Of a stretch of 64,000 nucleotides of DNA, positions 16,984 through 64,000 are shown in pieces. The notes beneath the pieces are model-generated. The model was not told the origin of the DNA. It did no database searches and saw only the letters and a list, made by a program, of their open reading frames with translations. The stretch covers positions 62,001 through 126,000 of the forward strand of contig NZ_NMVQ01000047.1 in assembly GCF_002250625.1 (NCBI RefSeq), in the 5' to 3' direction. The first letter of the stretch is position 1, and the number at the start of each line of letters is the position of its first letter. Source of the stretch: Enemella dayhoffiae. GTDB taxonomy: Bacteria; Actinomycetota; Actinomycetes; Propionibacteriales; Propionibacteriaceae. The translations under genes and the position numbers were made by a program.

Positions 16984-19785
16984 TCACGCGGGGAGGACGC
17001 GGCCGCGGGGTTGACCCTCCATCACCTGCTGCAGCAACTCGACGGTCTCCTCGTCGAGGTCGACGTTGAGCCGGCGGGCGTGCCGGACCATCCGCAGCGC
17101 GAGCCGCTCCACCTCGGTGACGTTGTTGGCGCGGTGCTCGGTGCGGACCCGGGCACAGAGCAACCGTTCGTCCTCGGGGGCGGCAACCAGGGCACGGTTG
17201 GTCGCCCAGCGGGCCAGGTCGAGGTCGCCGCGCTCGAGCGCGCGCTGACTGAGCACCAGTCCGACGTCTCGCACCATGGACGAGATGTCGGAGCGCAGTT
17301 CCTCGGCCCAGTGCCACTGCCCGGGTGCGGCGTCGGCCAGCGGAGCCCCGCGTACCAGTTCCAGCGCCTGCACCAGATGACCGTCCGCGGCCCGGTCGAC
17401 CCCCCCGATGGTGAGCAGTTGCAGCCGGTGCCAATCGGAAGAGACTCCGCCGTGCAGGGAGATCCGGCCGGAGTAGGCGTCCGGCAGGTAGGGCTCCCCG
17501 GTGGGGTCGAGCCCCAGCCAGCCCCTCAAACGGCTCATGTTGGAACGCCGCGTGGTCTCGGCGACGAACAGGGCGTTGGTCATCATCGCCGAGGTCGCGT
17601 TCGGGTTCTCCAGCAGCCAGGCACAGTATTCGATGCACTGCCGACGGGCCCGGTTGGGTGTCTCGCCGACCGCGCCGACCAGCTCGATCGGTCCGACCAG
17701 CAGCACCATTGGCGGTTGGGCCGCCCCCGCTGGGGTGGCTGCATGCAGGACCGGTTCGTGGGCGTCCATGGCAGCGGGCTCCTCGGTGCGTCGATCGGCC
17801 CGCCTCGGGCCCAGGGGTGTCACGTTCGCGAATCGGTCCGGCTCCTCGGCGTACGCCGCGGCCACCGGATCGCGGGGCTCGTCCACCGACCCCGGGGCGG
17901 ACCACCAGGGTGCCGGCCTGGTCTCCGGAGACCGCGTACGCTCCAGCAGCCCGACCAGGCTGTCCCGGGTGCTGCCGAGCAGTCGTTGGGCGATGAAGTC
18001 GATCTGATTGGGCAGGGAGGACAGCTCGGGTGGGGCCACGAGTTCGGCACCGGGGATCTGGTCGTCGGCGACCACGGCCACCACCCGGCCGGAGTCGGTC
18101 AGATCCGCCAGCCGCCTGCGCTGCTGGGGCGTCAGCGTCTGCCCGATCAGCAGCACCCGGGGGCGCCAGGCCTCTGCCAGTTGGGGGCGGCAGCGCAGAT
18201 CGCGCGGGTGGGCGTCCGGCGCGGGGTGTCGCGCTGCCGCGGACAGCACCGTGTCGAGATCGTCGGCGGTTCGCACCTCAGGCTGGTCGATCGCCAGCAC
18301 CAGTTCCGCGTCACCGCCGATGACAGTGACGCTCTGTCCGCTGCCCCACCAGGAGGAGCTCAACTCCAGCAAAAGCGACCCGAACACCCCGGCGACCGTG
18401 TCCGCGTCCCCCGACAGCCCGAGCAACCCGATCGTCTCCAGGTCGTGCAGCAGCAGGGTCCCGTCGGCCAGTTCACCGAGGCAGACGACACTGGGGTAGG
18501 GGCAGGGTTCATCGGCCAGTGCGTCCGCGCCGACCAGCGCGGCTCCGCCGTCGCGGTCGAGCCAGAGGTGGGTGGCGTCGGCGTGGAATCCGGGCGGGAG
18601 CGTCGCCGGCACGCGATCCACCTTCACGCTGATCCGGTCGTCGTCGACCAGCACCGCACCCAACCCCGGAAGGGATTCCCCGGCCTCGCGATAGTGCCGG
18701 CCGAGAGCGCGCAGGGCCAGGTTGAGCACGGTCAGGCTGAGCGGATCCTGGGCCTGCCCCAACGCCGCTTCGAGGTGGCGCTGAGGCGGTGTCAGCGGCA
18801 GCAGTTGGCGCCCCAGCGGGCGCTGGGTCAGCTGGGTCCGCCGACGGGTCGCCACGACCCCGAGCAGGGCGGCGGCGGTGAGCGAGCTGATTCCTGCGAC
18901 GCCGAGCGCGATCCGGGCGGCGGGTGCCAGAGCGGCCTGTTGCTCCTCCAGCGGGTCCGTTGCCGTTGCGGGCCCGCTCACGCCGACCGCGCAGAGCTGC
19001 TCGGCCGGGGCGTACGCCGCAGCGCTGGCGGACTCGTCGGAGGGGGCAGCGGGCGCGGGTTGGCCGGAGGGGACAGCTGCCGGCGGGTCGGAAGCCACGG
19101 CCCCCGGTGCCGGTGGAGGTTCGGCTGGAGCGGGTTTCGCAGGCGGCGCCTTCGGGATGCCCGGCAGGGCCAGCAGCCAGCCGATCTCGATCTCGTCGGG
19201 ATCGTCGATGAGCGACTGGTTGGCGGCGGCGATCTTGGCCCACATCCGCCCGTCGCCGTAGTGCTGTTCGGCGATCGACCACAGGCTCTCGCCCCGTTGC
19301 ACTCGGTGCCGCTGCCACTGATCGGATTGCGGGCTGGACCGTTCGGGCACGGCCGGCGTCGGCGCGGGCGTACGTTGCCCGACGTGGTCCGGGGCCGGGA
19401 CCGACCGGGTGTGTGCGGGGGGTGGCTGCGCGTGCGAGACGGCCGGGGCCGCGATCATCGCCGCGACGCTGAGCACCAGCACCGACATGGCGGCCTGGGG
19501 TCGGCCGAGGCCGGGCAGGGTGATCCGGATCCGCTGCCGGCTGAGCACGCGGACGATCTCACTGAGGACCGAGAGGGTGAAGACGGCCCAGGCCGCCCAA
19601 CCGAGGACGGTCAGCGCGCCCAGCAGGATCGCACCGTTGTCCGGGGTGAGCAGCACCTCGGGGAAGTCGCGCCACAGCCGGGCCAACTGAGAGAGCCGGC
19701 CGACGCGCAGCAGCACCCACGGCACCCCACCGACCAGACCGATCAGCAGCAGCAGCGCGGCCACACCGCGGACGAATCGCATCAT
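16984..19785 (-). CDS. LysM/BTAD-domain membrane protein of the Tad pilus locus
   Basis: A 933-aa protein. Two to three TM segments lie in the first 110 residues. A LysM module near 150-205 contains HRVQRGESLWSIAEQHYGDG, followed by a Pro/Ala-rich linker. A further TM lies near 275 (GVAGISSLTAAALLGVVATR). A long cytoplasmic part ends in a bacterial transcriptional activation (BTAD/TPR) domain with EDERLLCARVRTEHRANN. This architecture is typical beside actinobacterial tad genes. Role unknown; it may sense the cell wall and regulate the pilus. Its start overlaps the TadE-like stop by 4 nt. Confidence 0.82.
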   Translation of the reverse strand: MMRFVRGVAALLLLIGLVGGVPWVLLRVGRLSQLARLWRDFPEVLLTPDNGAILLGALTVLGWAAWAVFTLSVLSEIVRVLSRQRIRITLPGLGRPQAAMSVLVLSVAAMIAAPAVSHAQPPPAHTRSVPAPDHVGQRTPAPTPAVPERSSPQSDQWQRHRVQRGESLWSIAEQHYGDGRMWAKIAAANQSLIDDPDEIEIGWLLALPGIPKAPPAKPAPAEPPPAPGAVASDPPAAVPSGQPAPAAPSDESASAAAYAPAEQLCAVGVSGPATATDPLEEQQAALAPAARIALGVAGISSLTAAALLGVVATRRRTQLTQRPLGRQLLPLTPPQRHLEAALGQAQDPLSLTVLNLALRALGRHYREAGESLPGLGAVLVDDDRISVKVDRVPATLPPGFHADATHLWLDRDGGAALVGADALADEPCPYPSVVCLGELADGTLLLHDLETIGLLGLSGDADTVAGVFGSLLLELSSSWWGSGQSVTVIGGDAELVLAIDQPEVRTADDLDTVLSAAARHPAPDAHPRDLRCRPQLAEAWRPRVLLIGQTLTPQQRRRLADLTDSGRVVAVVADDQIPGAELVAPPELSSLPNQIDFIAQRLLGSTRDSLVGLLERTRSPETRPAPWWSAPGSVDEPRDPVAAAYAEEPDRFANVTPLGPRRADRRTEEPAAMDAHEPVLHAATPAGAAQPPMVLLVGPIELVGAVGETPNRARRQCIEYCAWLLENPNATSAMMTNALFVAETTRRSNMSRLRGWLGLDPTGEPYLPDAYSGRISLHGGVSSDWHRLQLLTIGGVDRAADGHLVQALELVRGAPLADAAPGQWHWAEELRSDISSMVRDVGLVLSQRALERGDLDLARWATNRALVAAPEDERLLCARVRTEHRANNVTEVERLALRMVRHARRLNVDLDEETVELLQQVMEGQPRGRVLPA

Positions 19786-20204
19786 CGTCTCCGATAGGTG
19801 TCCAGGGCCGAGACGGCCCGTCCGGACACCTCCACCGAACCGGGCAGCCCCCAGCCGATCAGGTCGGCCAGCCAGACCCGGCAGGAGACGTGTGCGGTGA
19901 CGTTGGCCGGAGTTCCGGGCGGCGTACCGAAACCCGCCAGGTCCAGCTGCACGGACTGTTCGGAGCAGCGCAGACCCGCCGTCGACAACCCGCTTCGCGC
20001 ACTGGTGTTCGCTTCCCGGCGAGCCGTGTCGACATCGCGGGCCAGCGTGGCCGCCCGGGCGGCGCTGTGCGCGACGTCGTTGACCGCGGCCCGGGCGAAC
20101 CAGACGCGGGCACCGCCGACGAGGACGGCCACGACCAGCACGATGACCGGCGTCAGCACGGCCAGCTCCAGCGCGGCCGCCCCGCGCTCCTGACGGCGGT
20201 TCAT
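19782..20204 (-). CDS. TadE-like pilus assembly/pseudopilin protein
   Basis: A 140-aa protein. The N-terminal segment RQERGAAALELAVLTPVIVL has the TadE pattern, with Gly before a hydrophobic segment and Glu at the fifth position of the mature end. Further on are two Cys residues that may form a disulphide outside the membrane. ATG 20204 overlaps the stop of the preceding TadE-like gene. It is part of a leftward operon with the LysM/BTAD gene. Confidence 0.8.
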   Translation of the reverse strand: MNRRQERGAAALELAVLTPVIVLVVAVLVGGARVWFARAAVNDVAHSAARAATLARDVDTARREANTSARSGLSTAGLRCSEQSVQLDLAGFGTPPGTPANVTAHVSCRVWLADLIGWGLPGSVEVSGRAVSALDTYRRR

Positions 20205-20581
20205 CGGTGCTCCAGGGGTGCGCTGGCCCGCTCGGTGACCGCGGACATGCCCAGGTCGACCAGCAGCGGGACTCGTCCGCTGACGTCCACGTCGACCCGC
20301 CCCGCCCCGCGGCGTACGGTCACGCTGACCTCGCTGAGCCCTCCGGCGTTGGCGACCGCGGTGGCGGCGCTGTGCCCCGCGCCGTGCCCGGCCCCCAAGG
20401 CCGACTCCGCCTCGGCAGCGGCGGCCGCGGCCTGCAGGACGGTGTTTCGACCATGCCACCAGAGACCCGCCTGCAGCCCACCGAGCAGGGTCAGCAGCAG
20501 CACCGGTGTGATTACCGCCCACTGCACCGACTCGCTGAGCCCACGCTCATCCCTGGCCGCATGTGTCGCAGAGACCCGCAT
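20201..20581 (-). CDS. TadE-family protein
   Basis: A 126-aa protein with one N-terminal TM. RDERGLSESVQWAVITPVLL shows the Gly-x4-Glu prepilin-like cleavage pattern of TadE proteins. The remainder is a small extracytoplasmic domain containing an Ala-rich helix (AAAAAEAESALGAG) and a short beta-rich domain. The start is 3 nt after the stop of the interrupted small pilin-like frame at 20585-20683. Tad genes usually continue upstream with pilin and tadC/B/A; here the prophage begins instead. Confidence 0.8.
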   Translation of the reverse strand: MRVSATHAARDERGLSESVQWAVITPVLLLTLLGGLQAGLWWHGRNTVLQAAAAAAEAESALGAGHGAGHSAATAVANAGGLSEVSVTVRRGAGRVDVDVSGRVPLLVDLGMSAVTERASAPLEHR

Positions 20582-20584
20582 GAT

Positions 20585-20683
20585 TCACCGCGGCATTTTT
20601 CCCTGTACGTACACGGTTACCGCAGCGATCACCAAGCCGGCAATGGTCACCGCACCGGCCATAGCCCTATACTCGCGTTCCAT
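20585..20683 (-). pseudogene. 3' remnant of a small Tad pilin-like gene cut by the prophage
   Basis: A 32-codon frame ends 3 nt before the TadE start, as expected for an operon partner. The peptide EYRAMAGAVTIAGLVIAAV followed by TVYVQGKMPR is an E-Y motif plus a single TM helix, resembling the C-terminal part of Flp/DUF4244-type small pilins. The upstream hydrophilic leader is missing, because the reading frame runs into the integrase start codon. I infer that phage integration separated this 3' part from its 5' part. Confidence 0.55.
20668..20673 (+). promoter_or_regulatory. -10 box of the integrase gene
   Basis: TATACT lies 8 nt before the integrase ATG with no ribosome site between, which would give a leaderless transcript. 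The -35 region is poor. It falls within the pilin remnant and therefore near attL. Confidence 0.45.
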
Positions 20684-22061
20684 GACCGAGGCCGTGATCT
20701 ACTGCCGCATCTCCCGGGACGCCGCCGGCCAAGGCCTCGGCGTGACCCGCCAGCGCGATGACGCCACCAGCCTCGCACACGCCCGCGGGTGGACCATCAC
20801 AGAAACCTTGGTGGACAACGATATCTCCGCATCCGGCCGCCGCCACCGCCCCGGCTTCGAACGCCTCATCACCCTCCTCACCGAAGGCCGCACCACCGTC
20901 GTCGTGGCCTGGACCCTCGACCGCCTCACCCGCAACCGCGCCGACACCGTCCGCCTCATCGAGGCCGCCCAAGATGCCCGCGCCACCATCGCCCTCGTCC
21001 GCGGCTCCGACCTCGACATGTCCTCACCCGCCGGCCGCCTCACCGCCGACCTGCTGGCCGCCGTGGCCCGCTCCGAGATCGAGACCAAGGCCGACCGCCA
21101 TCAACGCGCCGCCCAGCAGGCAGCCGAGGCCGGCCGCTGGCACGGAGGTGTACGCCCCTTCGGCTACGAGTCCGACGGCGTCAGCATCCGCGCCGGCGAG
21201 GCCGGTGCAATCGCAGCCGGCGCCCAATGGATCCTCGACGGCGTGCCCCTCGCCGACATAGCTCGGCGCTGGAACGACAACGGCACCCCCACCACCAGCG
21301 GTCACGACTGGGACGGCAAGTCAGTCGCGCAGGTGATGCGCCGAGCCCGCAACGCCGGCCTGCGCCGCCACCAGGGCAACCCGATCGGCCCAGCCGAGTG
21401 GCCAGAGATCATCGACCCCGACACCTGGCACGCCGTCCTCGCCGTCCTCAACGACCCCGGACGCCGCCATCGCCGCCACGACGCCTGGCTCCTCACCGGC
21501 GGCATCGCACTGTGTGGCCGGTGCGGGGCTCCCATGCAGGCCGGCACCTCGAGCGGTACCCGGATCGGCGGGAAGAAGGAGGTGTACCCCACCTACCGCT
21601 GCTCCGCGGCCGCCCATCTCAACCGGCACCGCGGCCGCGTCGACGCAGTCGTCGAGGAAGCCGTGATCACCTACCTGTCCCGCCCCGACATCGGCACCCT
21701 ACTCCCCGCCGACAGCCCCGACCTGTCCGGCATTACCGACGAAATCGACACCCTGCGACAGCGATCGGATCGACTCGCCGATGCCTACGCCGACGGGACC
21801 GTGGACCTGCAGCAACTCACCCGCGCCAACACCCGCATCGCCGCCCGTCTGACCGACCTCGAGCAGCAGCTGGCCGCCGCTGCCCCCACCCTGCAGCGCG
21901 GCCTGTCCATCGTCCACGCCCCCGACCCGCGCGAGGCCTGGCAGGAGTTGACCCTGCAGGCACGCAAGGACGTCATCCGCGCACTCGCCACCGTGTGGGT
22001 CGACCCGATCGGCAAGGGGAAGCGCCGCGAGGTCGGCGTCCGCGTCGAGTGGCTCACCTGA
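20682..22061 (+). CDS. int: Large serine recombinase (phage integrase)
   Basis: A 459-aa site-specific recombinase that inserts and excises the phage. The N-terminal resolvase domain (about 1-140) has VIYCRISRD with the nucleophile Ser11, and WTLDRLTRNRADT with the catalytic Arg. The recombinase domain follows (RPFGYESDG to about 300). A zinc ribbon has CGRCGAP and a later Cys/His pair. A coiled coil lies near 350-420 (DEIDTLRQRSDRLADAY). Excision would need a recombination directionality factor, which I cannot identify. Its end overlaps the convergent DUF3263-like gene by 8 nt. Confidence 0.95.
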   Translation: MTEAVIYCRISRDAAGQGLGVTRQRDDATSLAHARGWTITETLVDNDISASGRRHRPGFERLITLLTEGRTTVVVAWTLDRLTRNRADTVRLIEAAQDARATIALVRGSDLDMSSPAGRLTADLLAAVARSEIETKADRHQRAAQQAAEAGRWHGGVRPFGYESDGVSIRAGEAGAIAAGAQWILDGVPLADIARRWNDNGTPTTSGHDWDGKSVAQVMRRARNAGLRRHQGNPIGPAEWPEIIDPDTWHAVLAVLNDPGRRHRRHDAWLLTGGIALCGRCGAPMQAGTSSGTRIGGKKEVYPTYRCSAAAHLNRHRGRVDAVVEEAVITYLSRPDIGTLLPADSPDLSGITDEIDTLRQRSDRLADAYADGTVDLQQLTRANTRIAARLTDLEQQLAAAAPTLQRGLSIVHAPDPREAWQELTLQARKDVIRALATVWVDPIGKGKRREVGVRVEWLT

Positions 22062-26125: not shown

Positions 26126-26428
26126 GTGGTGGAACACCGAAAGCGACGACGCCGAGCGAAGGGGCGCTGGATGCGACTCAATGACCCGAACCTGCTCCGC
26201 AGGTACATGGACGATCGGGACTTCAGTCAAGCCCGCCTGGCTCGCTACGCCGGCTGCTCGCGCCAGTTCATCTGGCAACTGCTGAACGATCCCACCCGGC
26301 GCACCTGCACCCAGGAGGTCGGCCGTCGCATCGAGGAGGCGTTGAACGTGCTCGAGGGCACCCTATTCACGCCCAACAAGTCGCCTGATACGCGACCTTC
26401 CGTCACTCAGAAGACGACGGCCGCCTGA
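26126..26428 (+). CDS. Cro-like HTH protein
   Basis: A 100-aa basic protein. A positively charged N-terminus (EHRKRRRRAKGRW) precedes an HTH: DFSQARLARYAGCSRQFIWQ with a following DPTRRTCTQEVGRRIEEAL. GTG 26126 or the next GTG at 26129 follows GAGAGGGG. It is the first rightward gene after the operators, the usual place for Cro or an excise-type regulator. The mechanism is inferred from position. Confidence 0.75.
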   Translation: MVEHRKRRRRAKGRWMRLNDPNLLRRYMDDRDFSQARLARYAGCSRQFIWQLLNDPTRRTCTQEVGRRIEEALNVLEGTLFTPNKSPDTRPSVTQKTTAA

Positions 26429-40951: not shown

Positions 40952-41374
40952 ATGATGGATCGCGACTGCACCCATTGCGGCAAGTCCTTCCCGGCACAGC
41001 GCCCGACGGCACGCTACTGCTCGAGTTCGTGCCGGTCGAGGGCGTCCGTGGAGCGTAAGCGTGGGCACCAGGTCGCCGAGGTGGTCGCGAAGCTCCCCGA
41101 GCGGCCCGCGTCTGTCAGCGAGGGCCTGCTCGGGGTGACCGCCCGCCAGCTCGAGGCCGCGGGCAAGCTACAGACCTACGCCGGCCAGCAGGCGGTCATC
41201 ATCGCCCGCCGGATGAGCGACTTCTCGCCGATGGAGAACGGCTCGCAACTGGCGGCTCTGTCCCGAGAGTTGGATCGGTTGATGACGAGCCTTCTCGTTG
41301 ACATCGCACCGGAGGCGGACGCGCTGGACGAACTACAGGGCAACGTGGTGCCGATGAGGCAGCGGCGTGCCTGA
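40952..41374 (+). CDS. terS: Small terminase subunit
   Basis: A 140-aa protein. An N-terminal zinc knuckle, CTHCGKSFPAQRPTARYCSS then CRS, is followed by helical segments (VTARQLEAAGKLQTYAGQQAV, LAALSRELDRLM). Position directly before and overlapping the large subunit, plus the DNA-binding look, fit TerS. ATG 40952 after GGGAGGTG. The 119-bp gap upstream (40833-40951) shows no gene and may hold pac or cos sequence. Confidence 0.7.
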   Translation: MMDRDCTHCGKSFPAQRPTARYCSSSCRSRASVERKRGHQVAEVVAKLPERPASVSEGLLGVTARQLEAAGKLQTYAGQQAVIIARRMSDFSPMENGSQLAALSRELDRLMTSLLVDIAPEADALDELQGNVVPMRQRRA

Positions 41375-42938
41375 CGAGTGGGCATTCAAGGCGCCCGCAT
41401 TCAGTGCCATTCCGGACTACGAGCACACCGACGGACCGCAGGTGGCGGCGCTGTGCGAGCAGATCGGCTTCGGTCCCGACCCGGAGCAGCGTCTCATCCT
41501 CGACGCCCTGTTCGCGCTGCGCCCGACAGGACGCACGGACAGCAACGGCGAGACCGTCTGGCAGTCGGCGGCGTTCGAGACGTGCGTGGTCGCCCCACGG
41601 CAGAACCTGAAGACGGGCGTGATGAAGATGGCCCTGCTCGGCTGGCTGTTCATCACGCAAGAGAAGCTCATCACATGGTCGGCGCATGAGTTCGATACCA
41701 CCCGCGAGTCGTTCCGGGACGTGGAGATTCTGCTGACCAACTCGCCGATGCTGCGCAAGCGGCTGGCGGGAGGCCCGTCGAACGGCATCCATGGCGGCCG
41801 GGGTGACGAGCACATCGAACTGGCCGACGGGCGGCGGGTGAAGTTCAAGGCGCGGACGAAGACGGGCGCCCGCGGCCTGACGGGCGACAAGATCATCCTC
41901 GACGAGGCGTTCGCGCTGCAGCCCGAACACACCGGTTCGATCTATCCGACCCTGACGGTCGTTCCGGATCCGCAGTTGCTGATCGGCTCGTCGGCGGGAA
42001 TGGCTCGCTCGAGGATCTTGCGCGACATCCGTGACCGCGGCCGCTCGCCGAAGCCATCCTCACGACTGGCGTACTTCGAATGGTGCGCGGAGCGACGCCC
42101 ATGCCTCGACCGGCACGGCCGGGTGAACCGGCAGTGCCAGCACTTCAAGCCGTCCCACCCATTGCATGAGCCTGGCTGCGCGCTGGACGACCCCGAGCTG
42201 ATGGCGCAGGCGAACACGTTGCTGGGTCGGCATCGCGCAAACGGTACGGGCCTGACCGTCGAAAAGATGCGTGACTTTCGGGAGGCGGAGGATCCTGACG
42301 AGTGGATGCGCGAGCGTCTGGGTTGGTGGGAGGAGGCCGGCGCCGACGAGCTGTTCGGCGAGGGTCGCTGGATCGCATGCCGCGGCGAGGTCCCTACCTC
42401 GGTCGAGCCGATCGCGTTCGCCCTGGCGGTGACGCCGGAGCAGTCCGCCGGCTCCCTGTGCGGAGTGGGGCGGCTCGGTGATCGCTGGGCAATCCTTCCC
42501 GCCGGACACGATGCAGACTTGCGGGCGCTTCAGGCCGCGGCGCCGTCCGGCATCCCGGTCGTCATCGACTCCGGCGGTCCCGCTGCCAATCTGATCGCCC
42601 CCCTACGTCGTCGAGGCGTACGTGTCGTCGAGGCGAACTTGGGTGACTGTGCCGACGCATACGCCGACATGGTCCGCGCCGTCGGCGCCAAGGAGATTGT
42701 CCACGCGGGGTTCCCCGAGCTCGAGGATGCCGTCTCCGTCGCCACCACGAGGGCCGTGGGGGACCGCACCGTTCTCGGCCGGCGCAAGTCATCGGGCGAC
42801 ATCACCATGATCGAGGCCGCTGTTCTGGCGCTCTGGCAGGCCACCCGCCCATCGAAGCCACCGCCGCCACCAGCGACGCCTCCGCAGCAGTTCTCACGCG
42901 CCTCGTCGGGCATTGACGTGGCATCGATCGGATTCTGA
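41367..42938 (+). CDS. terL: Large terminase subunit
   Basis: A 523-aa packaging motor and nuclease. The ATPase centre has VVAPRQNLKTGVMKM as the (deviant) Walker A, and KIILDEAFALQ as Walker B with the catalytic Glu. The C-terminal RNase H-like nuclease holds acidic residues around VVIDSGGPAANL and HAGFPELEDA. GTG 41367. The length and neighbours are typical of siphoviruses. Confidence 0.92.
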   Translation: MPDEWAFKAPAFSAIPDYEHTDGPQVAALCEQIGFGPDPEQRLILDALFALRPTGRTDSNGETVWQSAAFETCVVAPRQNLKTGVMKMALLGWLFITQEKLITWSAHEFDTTRESFRDVEILLTNSPMLRKRLAGGPSNGIHGGRGDEHIELADGRRVKFKARTKTGARGLTGDKIILDEAFALQPEHTGSIYPTLTVVPDPQLLIGSSAGMARSRILRDIRDRGRSPKPSSRLAYFEWCAERRPCLDRHGRVNRQCQHFKPSHPLHEPGCALDDPELMAQANTLLGRHRANGTGLTVEKMRDFREAEDPDEWMRERLGWWEEAGADELFGEGRWIACRGEVPTSVEPIAFALAVTPEQSAGSLCGVGRLGDRWAILPAGHDADLRALQAAAPSGIPVVIDSGGPAANLIAPLRRRGVRVVEANLGDCADAYADMVRAVGAKEIVHAGFPELEDAVSVATTRAVGDRTVLGRRKSSGDITMIEAAVLALWQATRPSKPPPPPATPPQQFSRASSGIDVASIGF

Positions 42939-42955: not shown

Positions 42956-44236
42956 ATGACGGCACCGAAGGCCTTGCGTGAGCTCGGTTACCAGCACGCC
43001 TCGAGCGCGTGGTGGGCCGCCCCGGATCCCGAGACGACGCCAGAGCTGCAATGGCCGAAGTCCGTGGCCGTCTACGACACGATGCGTCGCCAGGATGCTC
43101 AGGTCATGTCGGTGCTCCGCGCCGTGTGGCTTCCGGTCCGGCGCACGAACTGGTGGCTGGATCCCGCCGGGGCACGCCCGGATGTGGTCGCCCAGATCGC
43201 CGAAGACCTTGGCCTCCCGATTCGAGGCCAGGACCCTGCCATCGATCCGGAGTTCGTGCGGAGTCGCGACCGGTTTTCGTGGTCCGAGCATTTGCGGCTT
43301 GCGCTGCTGATGCTGCCCTTCGGACATTCGTTCTTCGAGCAGGTGTACCGCTTCGACCCGGGATCGGGCTTCTACCGGCTGCGCAAGCTGGGGTGGCGGC
43401 CACCGCGCACGATCTCCAAGATCGACGTCGCGGCAGACGGCGGGCTGGTTGCGATCGAACAGTCCGGCGGCCTTGCGAAGAAGGACGCGCGGATTCCCGT
43501 CGACCAGCTCGTCGCGTACGTCCACGAGCGAGAGGGCGGGAACTGGCTCGGTCAGTCCCTGCTGCGGCCGGCCTACAAGTTCTGGTTGCTCAAGGATCGC
43601 GCCCTCCGAGTGCAGTCACAGGCGATCGAACGCAACGGAATGGGTATCCCGCTGTACAAGGCGTCACCCATTGCTGAGGGTGTCGACACCGAGGAGGCGC
43701 GCCAACGCGAGACTGAGGAGCTCGAGGCCGGTCGGCAGATGGCATCGGCATGGCGCGTTGGGGATAACTCCGGCGGCGCGGTCCCCAACGGGGCGGACAT
43801 GATTCTGCGGGGCGTCGAAGGCCGGATCCCTGATGCCGATCCGGTGATCCGCTACTACGACGAGCAGATCGCCCGTGCCGTCCTCGCCCACTTTCTCAAC
43901 TTGGGCACCGAGACCGGCTCGTGGGCGCTCGGTTCGACGTTCGCCGACTTCTTCACGCTGTCACTGCAGACACTCGCGCAGGACATCGCCGATGTGGCCA
44001 CCCAGCACATCGTCGAAGACCTCGTCGACATCAACTGGGGGTCCGGTGAGCGCGCGCCCCGCATAGTCCACGACGAGATCGGCGCACGCCACCCGGCCAC
44101 CGCCGAAGCGCTCTATCAGCTCGTCTCCTGCGGCGCTCTGACCGTCGACGACAACACCGAGACGTGGATCCGCAACACCTACGGCCTGCCTGCCCTCACC
44201 GGCACCCGCCCCGACCCGTCCTCGACGGAAGGATGA
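42956..44236 (+). CDS. Portal protein (DUF935-like)
   Basis: A 426-aa protein forming the capsid's portal ring. DTMRRQDAQVMSVLRAVWLP is the classical opening of DUF935/SPP1-type portals. HGxD-like loops and the long central stretch FFEQVYRFDPGSG, then a C-terminal IARAVLAHFLNLGTET, follow. ATG 42956 after GAAGGGAGG. The last bases overlap the protease start (ATGA). Confidence 0.9.
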   Translation: MTAPKALRELGYQHASSAWWAAPDPETTPELQWPKSVAVYDTMRRQDAQVMSVLRAVWLPVRRTNWWLDPAGARPDVVAQIAEDLGLPIRGQDPAIDPEFVRSRDRFSWSEHLRLALLMLPFGHSFFEQVYRFDPGSGFYRLRKLGWRPPRTISKIDVAADGGLVAIEQSGGLAKKDARIPVDQLVAYVHEREGGNWLGQSLLRPAYKFWLLKDRALRVQSQAIERNGMGIPLYKASPIAEGVDTEEARQRETEELEAGRQMASAWRVGDNSGGAVPNGADMILRGVEGRIPDADPVIRYYDEQIARAVLAHFLNLGTETGSWALGSTFADFFTLSLQTLAQDIADVATQHIVEDLVDINWGSGERAPRIVHDEIGARHPATAEALYQLVSCGALTVDDNTETWIRNTYGLPALTGTRPDPSSTEG

Positions 44237-45420
44237 CCATGGATTTCGCGAAGCTCCTGCGCCCGCAGGCGCGCTCCCCCCGATCGCCGATGGCACTGGC
44301 TGAGGGCCGGGCGTCGATCTACCTCTACGACGTCATCGGCGACCCGTGGTTCGGCGTCGACACGACCGCGCTGGTCAAGGAGATTGACGCACTCGACGTC
44401 GCCGACATCGACGTGTACATCAACTCTCCTGGCGGGATCGCGTTCGATGGCATCGCCATCGGCAACGCCCTGCGCCGCAACAGCGCGGCCGTCACCGTGC
44501 ACGTCGACGGGCTGTGTGCCTCCGCAGCGACGATCGTTGCCCTCTCCGGCGACGAGATCATCATGGCCCGTGGCGCCGAGTTCATGATCCATGACGCGTG
44601 GGGCCTGTGCGTGGGTCCGGCCGAGGATATGCACGCGATGGCTGCACAGCTCGACAAGCTGTCCGATGACATGGCGGCCATCTACGCCGAAGCCGCTGGA
44701 GGCAGTGCCGCCGAGTGGCGCGACGTCATGCGGGCCGAGACCTGGTACACCGCCGACGAGGCCGTGGCCGCCGGGCTCGCAACCCGCGTCGACCGCGAGG
44801 TCGACGGCGCCGAGGCCAAGGCCAAGTACGACCTGCGCGCATTCGCGCACGCCGGCCGGGACAACGCGCCCGCGCCCACCTTCACGCGGGCCACGACCCG
44901 CGCCCAAGAACCTCCGGCCGAGCCGGCGGAATCCGCAACCCATCAGGAAGGATCCGACATGTCGGACACCATCACCTCGGGTCTCCGTGAGCGGCTCGGC
45001 ATCAAGGCCGATGTCGACATCGACGAGGCCGGCCTCATGGCCGCTCTCGACGAGGCTCTCGCGGAGCGCGCCGAGACCACCACGCCCGTCCCGGGCACGA
45101 CTGTGATCGACGAGGCCACTCTCGCCGACCTGCAGGCCAAGGCCGCGCAGGGGGAGGCTGCGCGTGCGCAGCAGCTCTCCCAGGAGCGCGAGGCCAACGT
45201 CAATGCGGCCGTCGCCGACGGCCGCATCCCCCCGGCCCGCAAGGACCACTGGGTCGCGCAGCTCACTGCCGACCCCGGCGCGGCCGACGTCCTCGCCAAC
45301 CTGCCCAAGGGCACCATCCCGACCGCCCCGGCCGGGTTCACCGGCGGGGTCGACCAGGCCAGCGACGACGACCAGCTCTACAGCAAGGCCTGGGGTGCCC
45401 CGGCCACGAAGGAGGACTGA
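44233..45420 (+). CDS. ClpP-type head maturation protease with scaffold tail
   Basis: A 395-aa fusion. The first 200 residues are a ClpP-like serine protease: DVYINSPGGIAFDG, DGLCASAATIVALSG with the catalytic Ser, and MIHDAWG with the catalytic His. From about 215 a charged, Ala/Pro/Glu-rich region (TRATTRAQEPPAEPAESAT and a coiled part ADLQAKAAQGEAARAQQLSQ) looks like a scaffold removed after assembly. ATG 44233 overlaps the portal stop. A second internal ATG at 44959 (MSDTITSGLRERLG) could give a separate scaffold. Confidence 0.88.
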   Translation: MTMDFAKLLRPQARSPRSPMALAEGRASIYLYDVIGDPWFGVDTTALVKEIDALDVADIDVYINSPGGIAFDGIAIGNALRRNSAAVTVHVDGLCASAATIVALSGDEIIMARGAEFMIHDAWGLCVGPAEDMHAMAAQLDKLSDDMAAIYAEAAGGSAAEWRDVMRAETWYTADEAVAAGLATRVDREVDGAEAKAKYDLRAFAHAGRDNAPAPTFTRATTRAQEPPAEPAESATHQEGSDMSDTITSGLRERLGIKADVDIDEAGLMAALDEALAERAETTTPVPGTTVIDEATLADLQAKAAQGEAARAQQLSQEREANVNAAVADGRIPPARKDHWVAQLTADPGAADVLANLPKGTIPTAPAGFTGGVDQASDDDQLYSKAWGAPATKED

Positions 45421-45785: not shown

Positions 45786-46703
45786 ATGTACACATATCCG
45801 ACCATCCCGGTCTCTGGCGACCAGCTGACCGCGGAGCAGATCCACCGCCTCATGCAGTCGCCCGCCCTCGTGGCGCGCCGACTCGCCGACATCCTGAGCC
45901 AGAAGTTCATCGCGGACTACCTGCTCGCCGGCCGCTACGTCGCCACCGGCGGCGGAGTCATGTACCCGACCGGCGAGCCGATCTTCGCCGCCGACGACCC
46001 CGAAGCGATCGCCGCGGGCGGCGAGTACCCCATGACCGTCATGACCGGCGGCGAACTGGCTGCAGCCAAGGTCACCAAGTGGGGCCAGGACTCGGAGATC
46101 ACTGACGAGGCCATCGCCCGCTTCCTCATGGATCCGGTGAACCGGGTCCTCGCAGGCCTCGGGAATACCCTGATCCGCCACGTCGACTCGGTCGCACTGT
46201 CGGTGATCGGCTCGAAGGTGACCGACACCTACGACTCCACGGCCACGCCGTGGGCGACGGGGGAGGGCATCGTCGAGGGCGTCCTGCTCGCGAAGGCGAC
46301 GCAGGAGGACAAGTACGAGGACATGGCCTACGACCTCGGCACCGTGGTGCTGAAGCCGATCCAGTTCGCCAAGGTGGCCGCGTACCTGATCAAGTCGCGC
46401 ATGCTGCCGCAGGAGAACAACAACGCGGTCGTGTCCGGCGTCATCCCCGACGTTCTGGGCATGACGTGGACGACGTCGAAGCATGTCCCGTTCACGGATC
46501 CGCTGCTGGTGGACCGCGACCGTCTCGGCGGCATGGCCGACGAGGACATCAAGTCCCCCGGGTACAGCGCCCAGGGGTCCCTCGAGGTGAAGGTCATGCG
46601 CGTCGATGACCGCGACGCCTACCGCCCCCGCGCCCGTCGCGTCACCGTCCCCGTGGTCATGGACGCCGGCGCCGGCGTGCGGATCATCAACACCGGACTC
46701 TGA
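45786..46703 (+). CDS. Major capsid protein (HK97 fold)
   Basis: A 305-aa protein. Conserved capsid features are PTIPVSGDQLTAEQIHRLMQ at the N-terminus, GELAAAKVTKWGQDSEITDE in the E-loop area, and a C-terminal VKVMRVDDRDAYRPRARRVT. Length and position behind a decoration protein fit an HK97-fold capsid. ATG 45786 after GAGGAGCAG. Confidence 0.88.
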   Translation: MYTYPTIPVSGDQLTAEQIHRLMQSPALVARRLADILSQKFIADYLLAGRYVATGGGVMYPTGEPIFAADDPEAIAAGGEYPMTVMTGGELAAAKVTKWGQDSEITDEAIARFLMDPVNRVLAGLGNTLIRHVDSVALSVIGSKVTDTYDSTATPWATGEGIVEGVLLAKATQEDKYEDMAYDLGTVVLKPIQFAKVAAYLIKSRMLPQENNNAVVSGVIPDVLGMTWTTSKHVPFTDPLLVDRDRLGGMADEDIKSPGYSAQGSLEVKVMRVDDRDAYRPRARRVTVPVVMDAGAGVRIINTGL

Positions 46704-49995: not shown

Positions 49996-50005
49996 GGAGG
50001 TGATC

Positions 50006-53000
50006 ATGTCTCTCGACCTGGGGACCCTCTCTCTGACGATCGAAGCCGATGATCGCCTCACCGGGAAACTCCGAGGACTCGGCCGCGACGTGGACCGGAT
50101 GCGCGGAGAGATGGACCGCGGCGGCCTGGGGGCTGGGCGGTCCCTGGCCGACGGGTTCTCTGCGGGCGCCCAGGCCATCTTCGGCACCTTCGCGAAGATC
50201 AGTGGGGCTGTCGCAGCACTCGGTCTCGTCCAGATGGGCAAGATGGGCATCGAGGCCGGGATCAAGACGGCCGCCGGTATGGAGCAGGCCGAAATCGCCT
50301 TCACCACCATGCTCGGCTCGGGGCAGAAGGCCCAGGGGTTCCTCAACCAGCTGCAGCAGTTCGCCGCCAAGACCCCGTTCGAGTTCCCCGAGTTGCAGAC
50401 CGCCGCATCGTCGCTGATCTCGATCGGGATCGACGCCAACAAGGTCATCCCGATCATGACCACTCTCGGCAACGTGACCTCCGGCATGGGCACCGGCTCG
50501 GAGGGCGTGAAGCGCGCCACCGTTGCGCTGCAGCAGATGAACGCTGCCGGACGCATCACCGCAGAAGACCTGAACCAGTTGCGCGATGCCGGCATCCCTG
50601 TCTATGACCTGCTCGCAGCCGCCACCGGAAAGAGCAAGCAGGAGGTCGCCGACCTCGCACAGAAGGGCAAGCTCGGGCGCAAGGAGCTTGGGCAGCTGAT
50701 GTCGGCACTCGAATCCGGCAAGGGCATGGAGCGCTTCGCGGGGCTGATGGACAAACAGTCCGCCTCGCTGTCCGGCATGATCTCGACGTTCAAGGACACT
50801 GTGAACGTCGGGATGGCGCAGGCACTCCAGCCGATGATTCCACTGATCAAGCAGTCCCTGGGCTGGCTGTCGGAATCCGTGCTACCCAAGGTCGTTTCTG
50901 GATTCCAGGTCGCTGCGCTCGGGCTCACTCACTTCGTCGCCGGCTGGCAGTCGCAGGAGGCGGGTCTTACCGGAATGGCCCTGTGGGGGCAAAAGGCCGC
51001 CCACTACTTCGACCTGGTCACCTCTGCGGTCCGAGGCGTCATCGGCGTACTGGTGCAGGGTGACTATCAGGGCCAGTTCTGGCAGAAGTTCGGCATCGAG
51101 GAGGACTCCCCTATCATCGGGGTGCTCTTCAATGTGCGCGAGACCGTAATCGGGCTGGTGGGCTCGATTCAGGACAACTGGGCCGAGTTCGTCGACGTGC
51201 TGCAGGGCGGCGAGGGCGACGGGTCGCCGTGGCTGATGTCGATCGCCACTGTCATTCGTGAACTGTGGGTCAGTCTCTCCACTGCCGACTGGGCTGGCAT
51301 CGGCAACACGATCACCACGATGTTCACCAACCTCGGCAATGCCGACATTCAGCTCCCTGATATGTCCGGGGTGCTCGGTGTCGCCACGGCTGGGCTGGAG
51401 CTGCTCGCCAACAACATGGACAAGGTTGTCGCGGCCCTGCCGTGGCTGATCGGGCTGATGGCTGCATGGAAGGGGCTGCAGGCCGCCAACAATCTGCTGG
51501 GCAGGGATTCCGCGATCGGTATGGGGATGCAGCTGGCGGGCAATATCGCTCTGACCGCATCGAACTTCTCACTGGCGGCGTCCATGCGCTCGGTCAGTGC
51601 AGCTCAAGCTACGCAGAACACTGCCGAGTCGGTGGGGCTGCTCACCCGCATCCGCACCACCGCCGCAACTGTGGCGAAGACCGCTGCGGAATGGGCGGCT
51701 GGGGCGGCGACCCGTGCCGCCGCAGCAGGTCAGTGGCTGCTCAACGCAGCGATGACGGCAAACCCGATCGGCATTGTGGTGGTGGCCATCGCCGCCCTGG
51801 TGGCCGGAATCATCTGGGCATACAACAACGTCGGGTGGTTCCGCGACGGCCTGAATGCCGCCTGGAAGGTGATCTCGGCCGGGGCGCTGTGGCTGTGGAA
51901 CAACGGCATCAAGCCTGCATTTGACGGAATCGTTGCGGTTCTGTCCGGAGTGGCCGCCTGGGTGACAGGTGTCTTCGTTGCCGGCTGGGGGCTGCTGCGC
52001 ACCTATCTGATCGACCCGCTCGTGCAGGCTGGGACTGCGATCGCTGCATGGTGGTCCAGCACCTCCGCCTTCTTCGGCGAGTGGGGTGCGTGGATCGCCT
52101 CTGTCTTCGCCGCCGCCTGGGGCGTGCTCTACATCATCCTCATGCTGCCGATCCGGCTGGCGCAGATCGGGATTGACCTGGCGTGGCGGGGCATCGTCTT
52201 CGCGTTCAATGCAGCGAAGGATTTCGTACTGACCACCTTCGCCGTCGCGTGGGCGCTGGTGGAGACCTACCTGCTGGACCCGATGCGCCGAGTCTGGGCT
52301 GGAATCCAGTGGGTCTGGTCCGTGGTCACCGCGTCGTTCGTCGCGTTCTGGGGTTGGATCACCGGCGTCTTCGTGGGCTGGTGGAATCAGATCGAGCCCT
52401 ACATCATGGGACCGCTTCGCCTGGCGAAGGATGGCCTTGAGTGGGTCTGGAATGTCGCCATCGTCGGCTCGTTCACTGCGGCTTGGAACTGGGTGACCAG
52501 CACCTTTATGGGTTGGTGGCGTAGCCTCACTGATCTACTGAAGGGGCCGATCGATACCGCGAAGGGATTCATCGACGGGATCCTGGGCGGAATCAAAGAA
52601 TCCTTCCGGCTGACCGTCGAGGCCATCTCCTCAATCTGGGGTGGAGTCAAGGCCGCGGTCCGCGCCCCGATCGTCATCGCGGTCAAGGTCGGCAACTCGC
52701 TGGTCGACGGATTCAACACCTTGGCGGAGTTTGTGGAGCTCCCGAAGGCCCCGCGCATCGCCGACGTGCCAGAGTTCCAGACCGGCGGTCGGGTGAACCT
52801 GCCTTGGTCGGCTGGCGAGCGCGACCCCTATCTCGGCTTCACCCCGCGGGGCGCTTTCCGCTTCGAGGGTGAGGAATCCATCATCTCTCGGGCCAACACG
52901 AAGCGGATGGATGCCCAATACCCGGGGGCATTGGATCACATCATCGCAACCGGGACGCTTCCCGCGTACGCCGGCGGTGGTCGCGTCCACCCCGTGCCCG

Positions 53001-54208
53001 GCTATCCGGTGAACTGGGGACGCGGCTATCACGGCGTGGATCGCGGCTTGGACATTCCTGCACCGACCGGGACACCGGTGGTGGCGATGCGGGACAGTGC
53101 CGTACTGGCTACCAACCGGTGGGGCTACTCGTACGGTAATCACGTCCGCACGTCCGATGGTGCGGTCTACGCGCACCTGTCACAGATCCTCGTCAGCATC
53201 GGGCAGATGCTGCGTGCCGGGCAGGTCCTCGGCGCTGTCGGTTCCACCGGCAACTCGACCGGACCACACTTGCATGTCACCGCCTACGACGGGGAGTCGG
53301 CGGTCGGGAAGATCATCGGCGCCAATATGGGCGTCGTCCAGCAGGCGGTCAACTACGTGGGGCAACTCAAGGACAAGTTCGCCGGCCCACTGAGGGACCT
53401 TCTTGGCGCCGGCGATCATCCGATGGCGAAGATTGTCCGATCGATCCCGACCCGAGTCGCCGACGGGATGGTCAACATGGTCAAGGGCGCGGCCGATCGG
53501 ATGATGGCCGTCTCCGATAATGTGTCCGCCTCAACCCAGTCCGGTCCGAACCTGCTCGCGCAGATGTTCGGCATCGCGAAGGGTTGGGGGCTGGAGCGGC
53601 GCATTGCGCACATCATGGGCATCACGATGATGCAGGAGGCGTCCGGGCAGCTCGACTTCTCCCCGGATGAGAACAGCGACGTGGGTCCGTTCCAGCAGCG
53701 GACCCCCCGCGACGGTTCGATTCAGGCGCTCAACAACTTGGAGTACGCCATGCGGGTGTTCCTGTACGGCACCACGGCACGTCCGGGCAACGGGGATGGC
53801 GGCGGCTATCACGTGCCCGGACTGTTCGACAAGAACTGGCGCGGCATGGGGCTCGGGCAGGCCGCGCAGGCCGTCCAGGTATCGGCCTACCCGTCGTACT
53901 ACGACAAGTGGATCCCGTTTGTTGACCGGGCGCTGACGGCCAACGGCTATGCCTCCGGCACGTTCTCTGCCGCCCGCGGCTTCAACTGGACCAGCGAGAA
54001 AGCCGCCGAGCTCGTCCTGAACCCGCAGCTCCGTCGCTACGACGGAGGCGAGCGCGTACTGAACGGATCCGACACTGCAGCGCTGCTCGGAAAGCCGAAG
54101 GAGCGAGAGTTCCACTACCACGCCCGTGAGGTTCGCACGGACCCGCGCCGTGACGCCGAGGACGCCGCCTGGATGTGGCTCGACGCTTTCGAGAGGGGCT
54201 ATGCATGA
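50006..54208 (+). CDS. Tape measure protein with M23 peptidase domain
   Basis: A 1,400-aa tail-length protein. The N-terminal 250 residues have the conserved tape-measure block (EIAFTTMLGSGQKAQGFLN, RITAEDLNQLRDAGIPVYDL). A long hydrophobic/Trp-rich middle with about 25 repeats-like segments spans the membrane. Residues about 995-1095 are an M23 zinc endopeptidase: HGVDRGLDIP and GPHLHV. Near 1195-1330 a lysozyme-like region (HIMGITMMQEASGQLDF and DVGPFQQRTPRDGS) follows. ATG 50006 after AAGGAGG. It also marks the tail as about 200 nm by the usual 1.5 A per residue rule (family knowledge). Confidence 0.9.
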   Translation: MSLDLGTLSLTIEADDRLTGKLRGLGRDVDRMRGEMDRGGLGAGRSLADGFSAGAQAIFGTFAKISGAVAALGLVQMGKMGIEAGIKTAAGMEQAEIAFTTMLGSGQKAQGFLNQLQQFAAKTPFEFPELQTAASSLISIGIDANKVIPIMTTLGNVTSGMGTGSEGVKRATVALQQMNAAGRITAEDLNQLRDAGIPVYDLLAAATGKSKQEVADLAQKGKLGRKELGQLMSALESGKGMERFAGLMDKQSASLSGMISTFKDTVNVGMAQALQPMIPLIKQSLGWLSESVLPKVVSGFQVAALGLTHFVAGWQSQEAGLTGMALWGQKAAHYFDLVTSAVRGVIGVLVQGDYQGQFWQKFGIEEDSPIIGVLFNVRETVIGLVGSIQDNWAEFVDVLQGGEGDGSPWLMSIATVIRELWVSLSTADWAGIGNTITTMFTNLGNADIQLPDMSGVLGVATAGLELLANNMDKVVAALPWLIGLMAAWKGLQAANNLLGRDSAIGMGMQLAGNIALTASNFSLAASMRSVSAAQATQNTAESVGLLTRIRTTAATVAKTAAEWAAGAATRAAAAGQWLLNAAMTANPIGIVVVAIAALVAGIIWAYNNVGWFRDGLNAAWKVISAGALWLWNNGIKPAFDGIVAVLSGVAAWVTGVFVAGWGLLRTYLIDPLVQAGTAIAAWWSSTSAFFGEWGAWIASVFAAAWGVLYIILMLPIRLAQIGIDLAWRGIVFAFNAAKDFVLTTFAVAWALVETYLLDPMRRVWAGIQWVWSVVTASFVAFWGWITGVFVGWWNQIEPYIMGPLRLAKDGLEWVWNVAIVGSFTAAWNWVTSTFMGWWRSLTDLLKGPIDTAKGFIDGILGGIKESFRLTVEAISSIWGGVKAAVRAPIVIAVKVGNSLVDGFNTLAEFVELPKAPRIADVPEFQTGGRVNLPWSAGERDPYLGFTPRGAFRFEGEESIISRANTKRMDAQYPGALDHIIATGTLPAYAGGGRVHPVPGYPVNWGRGYHGVDRGLDIPAPTGTPVVAMRDSAVLATNRWGYSYGNHVRTSDGAVYAHLSQILVSIGQMLRAGQVLGAVGSTGNSTGPHLHVTAYDGESAVGKIIGANMGVVQQAVNYVGQLKDKFAGPLRDLLGAGDHPMAKIVRSIPTRVADGMVNMVKGAADRMMAVSDNVSASTQSGPNLLAQMFGIAKGWGLERRIAHIMGITMMQEASGQLDFSPDENSDVGPFQQRTPRDGSIQALNNLEYAMRVFLYGTTARPGNGDGGGYHVPGLFDKNWRGMGLGQAAQAVQVSAYPSYYDKWIPFVDRALTANGYASGTFSAARGFNWTSEKAAELVLNPQLRRYDGGERVLNGSDTAALLGKPKEREFHYHAREVRTDPRRDAEDAAWMWLDAFERGYA

Positions 54209-61297: not shown

Positions 61298-63073
61298 ATG
61301 GCACGCTTCCTCGAGCCGCAGGAGATCGTCGACGCGCTCCGCGGCGCCGGCCTCACCGTGATCGAACCCGACGGCTGGCGGGGCCGCTGCCGCTGCTGCA
61401 CCGGCCCCCACACCAACGCCGGCGGCCATATCCGCGAGTGGGTGACGCTCAACGGCATCACCATCCACCACACCTCGGGCGGGATGCTCCGCGGCGGGGC
61501 CGCCGTGGCGTACGCCTCTCGCGGTGGCTGGCTCACCACCGGTGACGCCAAGACGCCCGGGCCGCTCTGCCTGGCTGGGATTGACGGCGACGGCCGGATC
61601 ATCATGGTCGGCGCAGGCCGCTGCAACCACATCGGCAAGATCAGCTCCAGTGGCCTGGCCGCAATGCGCGCCGCAAACTTCTCCCTCGACGGGTCGCAGA
61701 ACCTGCGCGGCAGTGATCTGGACGGCAACGGCTACACCGTCGGGTTCGAGCTGATGGCCGGTGGCGTACCGAACGACGTCCAGCGCGACGCCGCGATCCG
61801 TGCGGCGGCCGCGCTGTGTCGGCGGCTGGGCTGGACCGGCCAGGAGGTCCACGGTCACGGCGAGGTCGCCGACTCCCGCGATTTCTCAGACCCCGGCTTC
61901 GATATGGGCCGATTCCGCCGCGACGTCATGGCCGCCGTCCGCGGCAACCAGACTCCCCCACCCCGACAGGAGACTCCCGTGACCACCCCTGATATTGGCG
62001 GCCGCATCGGCCAGCGCTGGGCTGAGCTCGGCGGCCCCCGCTCCATTCTCGGCAACCCCGCCGGCGACGAGGTCCGCACCGACACGGGCGCCTATCGGCC
62101 CTTCGAGCGCGGGTTCATGATCTGGTCCACCGACACCGACGCGCACGTATCCCTCGGGCTCATCCGCGAGGCGTACGCCCGGCAAGGATTCGAGCACGGC
62201 CACCTCGGCTACCCGATCAGCGACGAGTTCCCCATCGAAGGCGGCATCGGGCAGCACTACCAGAACGGCAGCATCTACTACCGCCTCGGCGACCCGCAGG
62301 CGTACGCCGTCTACGGCGCCATCCGCACCGTGTGGGCGTCCCTGCGATGGGAGACCGGCCCCCTCGGCTACCCCACCTCCGACGAGTTCGACATCGCCGA
62401 CGGACGAGGCGTCCCCGGCAGGGTGCAGCGATTCCAGGGGGGCGCCGTGTGGCACTCCGAGCGCGGCACCTGGCCGGTGTGGGGTCTCATGCTGGAGCAG
62501 TACGCCGCCCAAGGATGGGAGCGTGGGCCGTGGGGATTCCCCGGCGGCCCCGAGAACAAAGTCGGCGCCGACTACTACCAGGGCTTCGCAGGCGGGGTCT
62601 TCAAGGTGACCGCCGCCCGACCGCCCGCACAGGTCCAGGCAGCACCCGTGGCGCCGAGCAAGTTCGTCCGGCCCATCCGGGACGCGGCCCGCTTCCCCAT
62701 CACCATGGCATACAGGGTGCCCGGCGACTGGGCAGCAGGGTTCCATCCCGGCGTGGACATCGGCTGCCCCATCGGGACTCCGGTGTACGCCACTATCTCC
62801 GGCGACGTCCGCACCGCTGCCCGTGGCGGCTGGGACCCGGCGTACGGCAACCACGTCATCATCTCCGACGACGACCCGGACGGCTCCGACTGGGGCTACT
62901 GCCACCTGTCGCGCGTCGTGGTCCGCGAAGGCCAGCACGTCGAGACCGGCCAGCTCATCGGCTACTCCGGCGACACCGGCCGGACCTTCGGCGCCCACCT
63001 GCACCTCGAACGCCGCAAGCGCGGCACCGGCTATGCCGCCAGCAACTTCCGCAACCCCAACCAGTGGCCCTGA
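61298..63073 (+). CDS. Endolysin: amidase, LGFP repeats and M23 peptidase
   Basis: A 591-aa lysin. Residues about 45-215 are an N-acetylmuramoyl-L-alanine amidase with GITIHHTSGG, FELMAGGVP and VHGHGEVAD with RDFSDPG (zinc ligands His/His and catalytic Glu). Residues about 230-440 hold LGFP wall-binding repeats (RSILGNPAGDE, GHLGYPISDEF, GPLGYPTSDEF, GPWGFPGG). Residues about 470-585 are an M23 endopeptidase (FHPGVDIGCPIG, GAHLHLERRK). Two enzymes on one chain cut both peptide-glycan links. ATG 61298. Confidence 0.93.
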   Translation: MARFLEPQEIVDALRGAGLTVIEPDGWRGRCRCCTGPHTNAGGHIREWVTLNGITIHHTSGGMLRGGAAVAYASRGGWLTTGDAKTPGPLCLAGIDGDGRIIMVGAGRCNHIGKISSSGLAAMRAANFSLDGSQNLRGSDLDGNGYTVGFELMAGGVPNDVQRDAAIRAAAALCRRLGWTGQEVHGHGEVADSRDFSDPGFDMGRFRRDVMAAVRGNQTPPPRQETPVTTPDIGGRIGQRWAELGGPRSILGNPAGDEVRTDTGAYRPFERGFMIWSTDTDAHVSLGLIREAYARQGFEHGHLGYPISDEFPIEGGIGQHYQNGSIYYRLGDPQAYAVYGAIRTVWASLRWETGPLGYPTSDEFDIADGRGVPGRVQRFQGGAVWHSERGTWPVWGLMLEQYAAQGWERGPWGFPGGPENKVGADYYQGFAGGVFKVTAARPPAQVQAAPVAPSKFVRPIRDAARFPITMAYRVPGDWAAGFHPGVDIGCPIGTPVYATISGDVRTAARGGWDPAYGNHVIISDDDPDGSDWGYCHLSRVVVREGQHVETGQLIGYSGDTGRTFGAHLHLERRKRGTGYAASNFRNPNQWP

Positions 63074-63639: not shown

Positions 63640-63911
63640 GGATCCCCGGCCAGTGGGCACCCTGCCGCGTCTGTGGCTTCCGCACGCCTTCCCGGGACCG
63701 TGAGGGCCCGATCTGTCACGCATGCGCCCCCCGCTCCGGCGGGGGGCGTTCTGGCGTTTCAGGAGGGCCGCAGTCGATCCGCCCGAACCCACGACTCGAC
63801 CGCCTGACCGCCCTCGCTGGTAACGACCCGCCCCCACCAGCCATCCGCCCGGCGATCCCACTCGAGCAACAGCCCGGGCTCACCGTCGACCCACACATGC
63901 CGCGGCAGTGA
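63636..63911 (+). CDS. Small zinc-ribbon protein (uncertain 3' part)
   Basis: GTG 63636 overlaps the previous stop (GTGA). The first 35 residues form a zinc ribbon: APCRVCGFRTPSRD then ICHACAPRSGGG. The frame runs on to 63911 through a strong hairpin (63725-63748) and antisense to the 69-aa gene on the other strand, so only the ribbon is well supported. Confidence 0.4.
   Translation: MRIPGQWAPCRVCGFRTPSRDREGPICHACAPRSGGGRSGVSGGPQSIRPNPRLDRLTALAGNDPPPPAIRPAIPLEQQPGLTVDPHMPRQ
63725..63748. terminator. Terminator hairpin at the end of the late operon
   Basis: A perfect 10-bp GC stem CGCCCCCCGC / GCGGGGGGCG with a 4-nt loop TCCG, followed by TT on the plus strand. It lies between the rightward lysis genes and the leftward gene at 63759 and could end both transcripts. 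Confidence 0.75.
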
Positions 63912-63968
63912 CGGCCGAGACAGGCCCAGCCGCTCGGTCACGGAGCGATCATCGGGAAGGCCGGGCAT
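63759..63968 (-). CDS. Small protein of unknown function, 69 aa
   Basis: ATG 63968. The peptide RHVWVDGEPGLLLEWDRRAD and GRVVTSEGGQAVESWVRADR looks like a small beta-barrel (SH3-like) protein. It is the only leftward gene on the right side of the prophage. Whether it is phage or host is open, because the right attachment site is not visible. The last 32 bases of the window show no feature. Confidence 0.55.
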   Translation of the reverse strand: MPGLPDDRSVTERLGLSRPSLPRHVWVDGEPGLLLEWDRRADGWWGRVVTSEGGQAVESWVRADRLRPS

Positions 63969-64000
63969 GGCCGCGAGCGTACGGCCGGCAGCAGACAGCC

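Follow-up and report, generated by a model that had tools for sequence, protein, structure and literature searches.

A prophage of 44,171 bp, measured from core to core, interrupts a Tad operon at its pilin gene in the DNA analysed here (the window, 64,000 nucleotides, C47:62001-126000 of a 3.72-Mb genome; the following 20 kb of the contig were read as L004). The two halves of the gene lie at the two junctions, share a 7-bp core and can be rejoined exactly, and the gene is intact in relatives. Integration at this pilin attB is attributable to a large serine integrase whose relatives in Actinobacteria recurrently split genes of the transformation pathway. The site is most likely used because a block of transformation protects the prophage, an explanation that we hold with moderate confidence.

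A Tad pilin gene split by a prophage

The sequence-only reading had proposed that a prophage splits a Tad pilin gene, starting from a 32-codon leftward frame that stops 3 nt before the TadE start, and this proposal holds. The open frame occupies 20585-20683 of the minus strand (translation MEREYRAMAGAVTIAGLVIAAVTVYVQGKMPR, then a stop), and its stop lies 3 nt ahead of the tadE ATG at 20581. Only 20585-20661 are host pilin DNA; positions 20662-20683, which include the start codon, are phage DNA, and it is these 22 bp, read in frame with the C-terminal half of the pilin, that produce the 32-codon frame. Since the C-terminal half recurs within intact pilins adjoining tadC and tadE in relatives, the frame is not due to chance. 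The features of the window and of the right junction are as follows.

16984..19785, minus strand: large LysM protein, conserved downstream operon gene (synteny with relatives)
19782..20204, minus strand: second TadE-domain minor pilin, named tadF here (Pfam PF07811)
20201..20581, minus strand: TadE-like minor pilin, the next gene downstream after the split pilin (Pfam PF07811)
20585..20661, minus strand: Tad pilin 3' (C-terminal) half, host DNA, ending at the crossover core
20655..20661: attL core, CCGGCCA, read as TGGCCGG on the pilin strand; dyad symmetry is best when centred between 20655 and 20656 (CC)
20682..22061, plus strand: large serine integrase, 459 aa, with Resolvase, Recombinase and zinc beta ribbon domains
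26126..26428, plus strand: phage HTH repressor-like gene
41367..42938, plus strand: terminase large subunit
44164-45420: head maturation protease
45786..46703, plus strand: major head protein
50000..54208, plus strand: tail tape measure protein
61298..63073, plus strand: endolysin
63759..64000: last part of the window, prophage to its end, with attR beyond it
Window-equivalent 64826-64832 (C47:126826-126832), outside the window: attR core CCGGCCA

At the right junction, about 0.8 kb past the window end, the minus strand carries the 5' half of the pilin (MERTTRLVHLLTAITLTLLTPRPRDQRGLSQSTENAILLAGAIVR, then a stop), extending to about C47:126947. Upstream of it on the same strand are tadC, tadB and then a TadA-family ATPase gene, the arrangement that the earlier reading had proposed to look for. 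The tadB and tadC products are of T2SSF type; the Pfam match of tadC falls below the cut-off, yet the protein aligns with the TadC of relatives. The heptamer TGGCCGG is common to both junctions, and joining the flanks in silico at this shared core gives a continuous 63-codon frame (MERTTRLVHLLTAITLTLLTPRPRDQRGLSQSTENAILLAGAVTIAGLVIAAVTVYVQGKMPR) like that of the uninterrupted relatives. Both halves are undamaged and rejoin exactly, and excision would be expected to restore the gene. In attP and attB rebuilt from the flanks the best dyad symmetry covers 14 of 25 positions each and is centred on the same CC dinucleotide, which fits the expectation for a serine integrase.

The joined pilin is, as judged by eye from the in-silico join and the intact relatives, a short prepilin with one hydrophobic helix, and it is located between tadC and tadE. 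Its assignment to a Flp/DUF4244 type was not borne out: a Pfam search of the joined pilin matched no family, neither Flp nor DUF4244. The E-Y motif ascribed to it also proved misplaced, since EREYRAM is phage sequence beyond the core and occurs in no member of the pilin family. The real motif (RGLSQSTENAILLAG) is found at the other side of the prophage, and in 5 of 5 members a GLSQSTENA sequence is found instead of the G/XXXXEY processing motif, which is absent. Invariant residues in the five aligned members include GLSQSTENA and LLAGAV, and the crossover site falls in the A-LLAGAV codons. In all four same-genus genomes searched the pilin is intact and present in one copy between tadC and tadE (55-76% identity), while in the host's own genome it is present solely as two halves. 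A pilin profile matches 163 of 198 host-family genomes, and relatives throughout the family keep the order tadB-tadC-pilin-tadE-tadF-LysM.

Packaging, head, tail and lysis genes are all present in the prophage, together with an exonuclease and a RuvC-like resolvase, so that by gene content it is a complete-looking temperate phage. Its late region includes a collagen-like, Gly-Pro-rich repeat stretch (window 60600-61200). Only about 20 bp of phage DNA separate the attL core from the integrase start (window 20662-20681; other end C47 126750-126826), and integration therefore places host DNA upstream of int and may remove its promoter. An HTH_17 protein near attR (C47 126005-126547, minus strand; L004:505-1047) has weak excisionase-like matches and is an unproven candidate for the directionality factor. 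IMG/VR contains a second prophage (2920158810) whose integrase is 94% identical to that of the window. It begins within the same codons of the pilin, and one of 12 host-side bases differs; its right end is trimmed ahead of attR, and the site match refers to one junction. The remainder of this second prophage is a mosaic relative to the first, at 74-96% identity, indicating two distinct phages at one site.

Elsewhere in the host genome, comEA-comEC and dprA-comM are intact. A second Tad cluster is also intact on contig C5 (L233:5938-9739) and comprises genes for CpaF, two TadB/TadC-like proteins, a DUF4244 pilin (PF14029) and a TadE-like protein; the presence of two Tad systems in one host recalls Micrococcus luteus. 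The sequence-only reading had held that an intact pilin gene next to tadC elsewhere would speak against it. The DUF4244 gene on C5 is such a gene, but its cluster is a separate second system and does not substitute for the split gene in its operon.

Targets of related integrases

With the window integrase as sole query, a host-family search found 30 loci, eight of which split transformation genes (pilin 1, tadA 6, comM 1). In six host-family genomes the integrase adjoins a truncated TadA ATPase from an operon of the same type, broken near residue 422; in five of these, 15-50 kb of a single contig separate the two tadA halves, and in the sixth the halves are on separate contigs. The closest integrase to that of the window among the host-family loci (48%, locus G100) adjoins comM/YifB. 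There are no tad genes near this locus, and the gene that it splits is comM. In G100 and G201 comM lacks just its last ~30 residues, and its product may stay functional.

Active lysogeny, in which excision and reintegration toggle expression of the interrupted gene, is known at comK in Listeria and hlb in Staphylococcus aureus. There too a gene is split exactly and rejoined on excision, whereas in the present case the resemblance lies in the rejoinable frame. A comparable switch of the pilus would agree with the exact rejoining of the undamaged pilin halves, with the structural, lysis and repressor genes of the prophage and with the HTH protein of weak excisionase-like similarity near attR. 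However, the split tadA halves of G090 and Tessaracoccus coleopterorum have stops or frame breaks and, unless these are assembly errors, as is possible, restorability is not always maintained. We regard a switch as improbable. In T. coleopterorum HDW20 (L086/L165, C1:1546087) the other part of the split tadA is 24 kb off, in several pieces and with a stop, and the integrase reading also appears broken near its end.

A single-sequence search of the named genome contigs with the window integrase gave no match, but a profile search did. This wide scan used a profile (A2) against named genomes and viral contigs and brought the total set to 167 loci, of which 123 were kept after removal of near-duplicates and of loci without readable upstream sequence. 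The integrase adjoins a truncated transformation gene in 49 of the 123: a tadA/cpaF-type ATPase gene (33), comM (12), comEC (2), comEA (1) or the pilin of the window (1). A closer look added eight ATPase cases (L100, L105, L108, L112, L123, L128, L152 and L164), L112, at a distance of ~200 bp, being a probable one; L105 had been outside the 123, and the denominator becomes 124. About 57 of 124 distinct readable loci of window-integrase relatives in Actinobacteria thus split transformation genes: tadA/cpaF in 41, a share that may be inflated because the seed of A2 consisted of the window integrase and six others that split tadA, comM in 12, comEC in 2, comEA in 1 and this pilin in 1. The comM, comEC and comEA matches were outside the seed. 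For about half of the related integrases the target is either different or unread, and DprA was not found as a direct target among the loci examined. The Streptomyces-type viral contigs L183, L187, L189 and L205, whose upstream sequence was taken as the phage side, were left uncounted.

The ATPase fragments have TIGR03819 as their closest NCBIfam model where tested, below the whole-protein cut-off. L106 (Geodermatophilus) was recognised as a comEA case, and L129 and L210 as comEC cases, by eye from translations, and both comM parts were located in Streptosporangium and Williamsia genomes. An element of only about 4.7 kb with the same integrase type lies between two comM parts in L172 (IMG/VR 3300048852_000049). 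In L090 (Mycobacteroides chelonae S00154) comM parts 20-109 and 446-524 are 14.7 kb apart, the middle of the gene was not found, and the integrase adjoins the C-terminal part.

Break points in CpaF lie near the DLSxPFVDA, Walker A, EVFEL and SGLPG motifs, and those in ComM near residues 83-105, 303, 430 and 480-500. Serine integrases favour conserved coding sequence, and conserved motifs alone could attract them. It is accordingly possible, though rather unlikely, that the attB sequence needed by these enzymes just happens to lie in conserved ATPase, pilin or com codons, with the loss of the gene tolerated and no benefit to the phage. This is the strongest rival explanation because the crossover codons are highly conserved (LLAGAV in the pilin; the SAG, Walker A and PFVDA regions in the ATPase), and attB sites in coding sequence are common among actinobacterial serine integrases. 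On the other hand, both the ATPase and ComM are split at several different positions, and the splits extend across five unrelated protein families of one pathway; moreover, the closest integrases with different targets remain within the transformation pathway.

In a quick maximum-likelihood tree of 123 integrases, that of the window groups with a comM-splitting one (SH-aLRT 100), the comEC-splitting L129 with CpaF splitters (SH-aLRT 100), and the comEA-splitting L106 is nested in another CpaF group (SH-aLRT 95-100). The target labels over the whole tree require 28 changes against a shuffled mean of 44, an approximate count given that the labels precede the eight added cases. Targets therefore switch often, yet the closest switches remain in one pathway.

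This distribution also bears on the idea that the Tad pilus is the receptor for phages or competitors and that its disruption prevents superinfection. Pilus-dependent phages are known, and the pilus motor and pilin are among the targets; ComM, ComEC and ComEA, however, are not pilus receptors, yet they are targets of close relatives, and the idea leaves these unexplained. We consider it very improbable. We lean, if only slightly, towards an actinobacterial large-serine-integrase lineage specialised on the transformation pathway, whose target switches keep landing there (Tad motor, pilin, ComEA, ComEC, ComM) and which would represent the phage side in an arms race with chromosomal curing.

A proposed shield of the prophage against transformation

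In the mechanism that we propose, the integrase inserted the phage at attB within the pilin gene. Codons 1-41 stayed next to tadC/B/A and are now separated from codons 41-63, which are followed by tadE, tadF and the LysM gene. The lysogen would consequently be without this pilin, and the final genes of the operon would be severed from any upstream promoter. An actinobacterial Tad/Flp pilus can serve in DNA uptake, and a block of transformation would shield the prophage from deletion by homologous recombination with imported DNA. Members of the integrase family occupy different parts of this machinery (the Tad/CpaF motor, the pilin, ComEA, ComEC and ComM), which suggests that related phages disable the pathway by which the host could delete them. 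On this reading the pilus would be lost, transformation would decrease, and the decrease would be selected for.

Transformation in M. luteus requires the tad genes and flp (Angelov et al. 2015, PMC4322843); the need for the pilus, demonstrated there, is extended here by analogy, and the host's own Tad pilus may have a DNA-uptake role by comparison with M. luteus only. The pilins also differ, that of the host having GLSQSTEN for G/XXXXEY. Prophages in the pneumococcal competence pilin gene comYC abolish transformation, and this insertion has been explained as guarding the prophage from recombinational removal (PMC4774983, PMC12637031). On the strength of the tad/flp requirement in M. luteus, the intact com genes of the host and the comYC prophages, an anti-transformation 'intragenomic conflict' is favoured over a dedicated on/off switch of the pilus. 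Against an anti-transformation role stand the host's other Tad cluster, intact and equipped with a pilin gene, and the fact that Tad pili serve adhesion too.

Relation to known systems and significance

The comYC prophages of Streptococcus and Lactococcus are likewise temperate phages integrated inside a DNA-uptake pilin gene, and related integrases also occur in other competence genes, with insertions in comM, comFA and comK (Croucher et al. 2016, PMC4774983). The present case differs in that it concerns a Tad/Flp pilus rather than a Com T4P, in Actinobacteria, with a role in DNA uptake assigned by analogy, and in that a single large-serine-integrase family is found in motor, pilin, ComEA, ComEC and ComM. 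The main text of that paper contains no mention of Tad, Micrococcus or Actinobacteri*. Repeated use of one functional target class has likewise been described for an integrase clade of satellites that targets prophage late genes (PMC10111431), although targets and element type differ. Targeting of transformation genes by the present integrase family was not found reported in the part of the literature searched. The sites of serine integrases, with their very short cores, often go unmapped (PMC10654092), which may be why the pattern was missed.

If the anti-transformation reading is true, the sites occupied by prophages would reveal actinobacteria with a present or recent capacity for natural transformation, along with the genes that are key to the process. 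They would mark Tad/CpaF and the pilin as uptake genes in organisms where transformation has never been measured; to our knowledge, natural transformation has barely been studied in this phylum. The idea of intragenomic conflict would be extended from streptococci and proteobacteria to Actinobacteria, and many insertion sites would become available for a statistical test of the theory.
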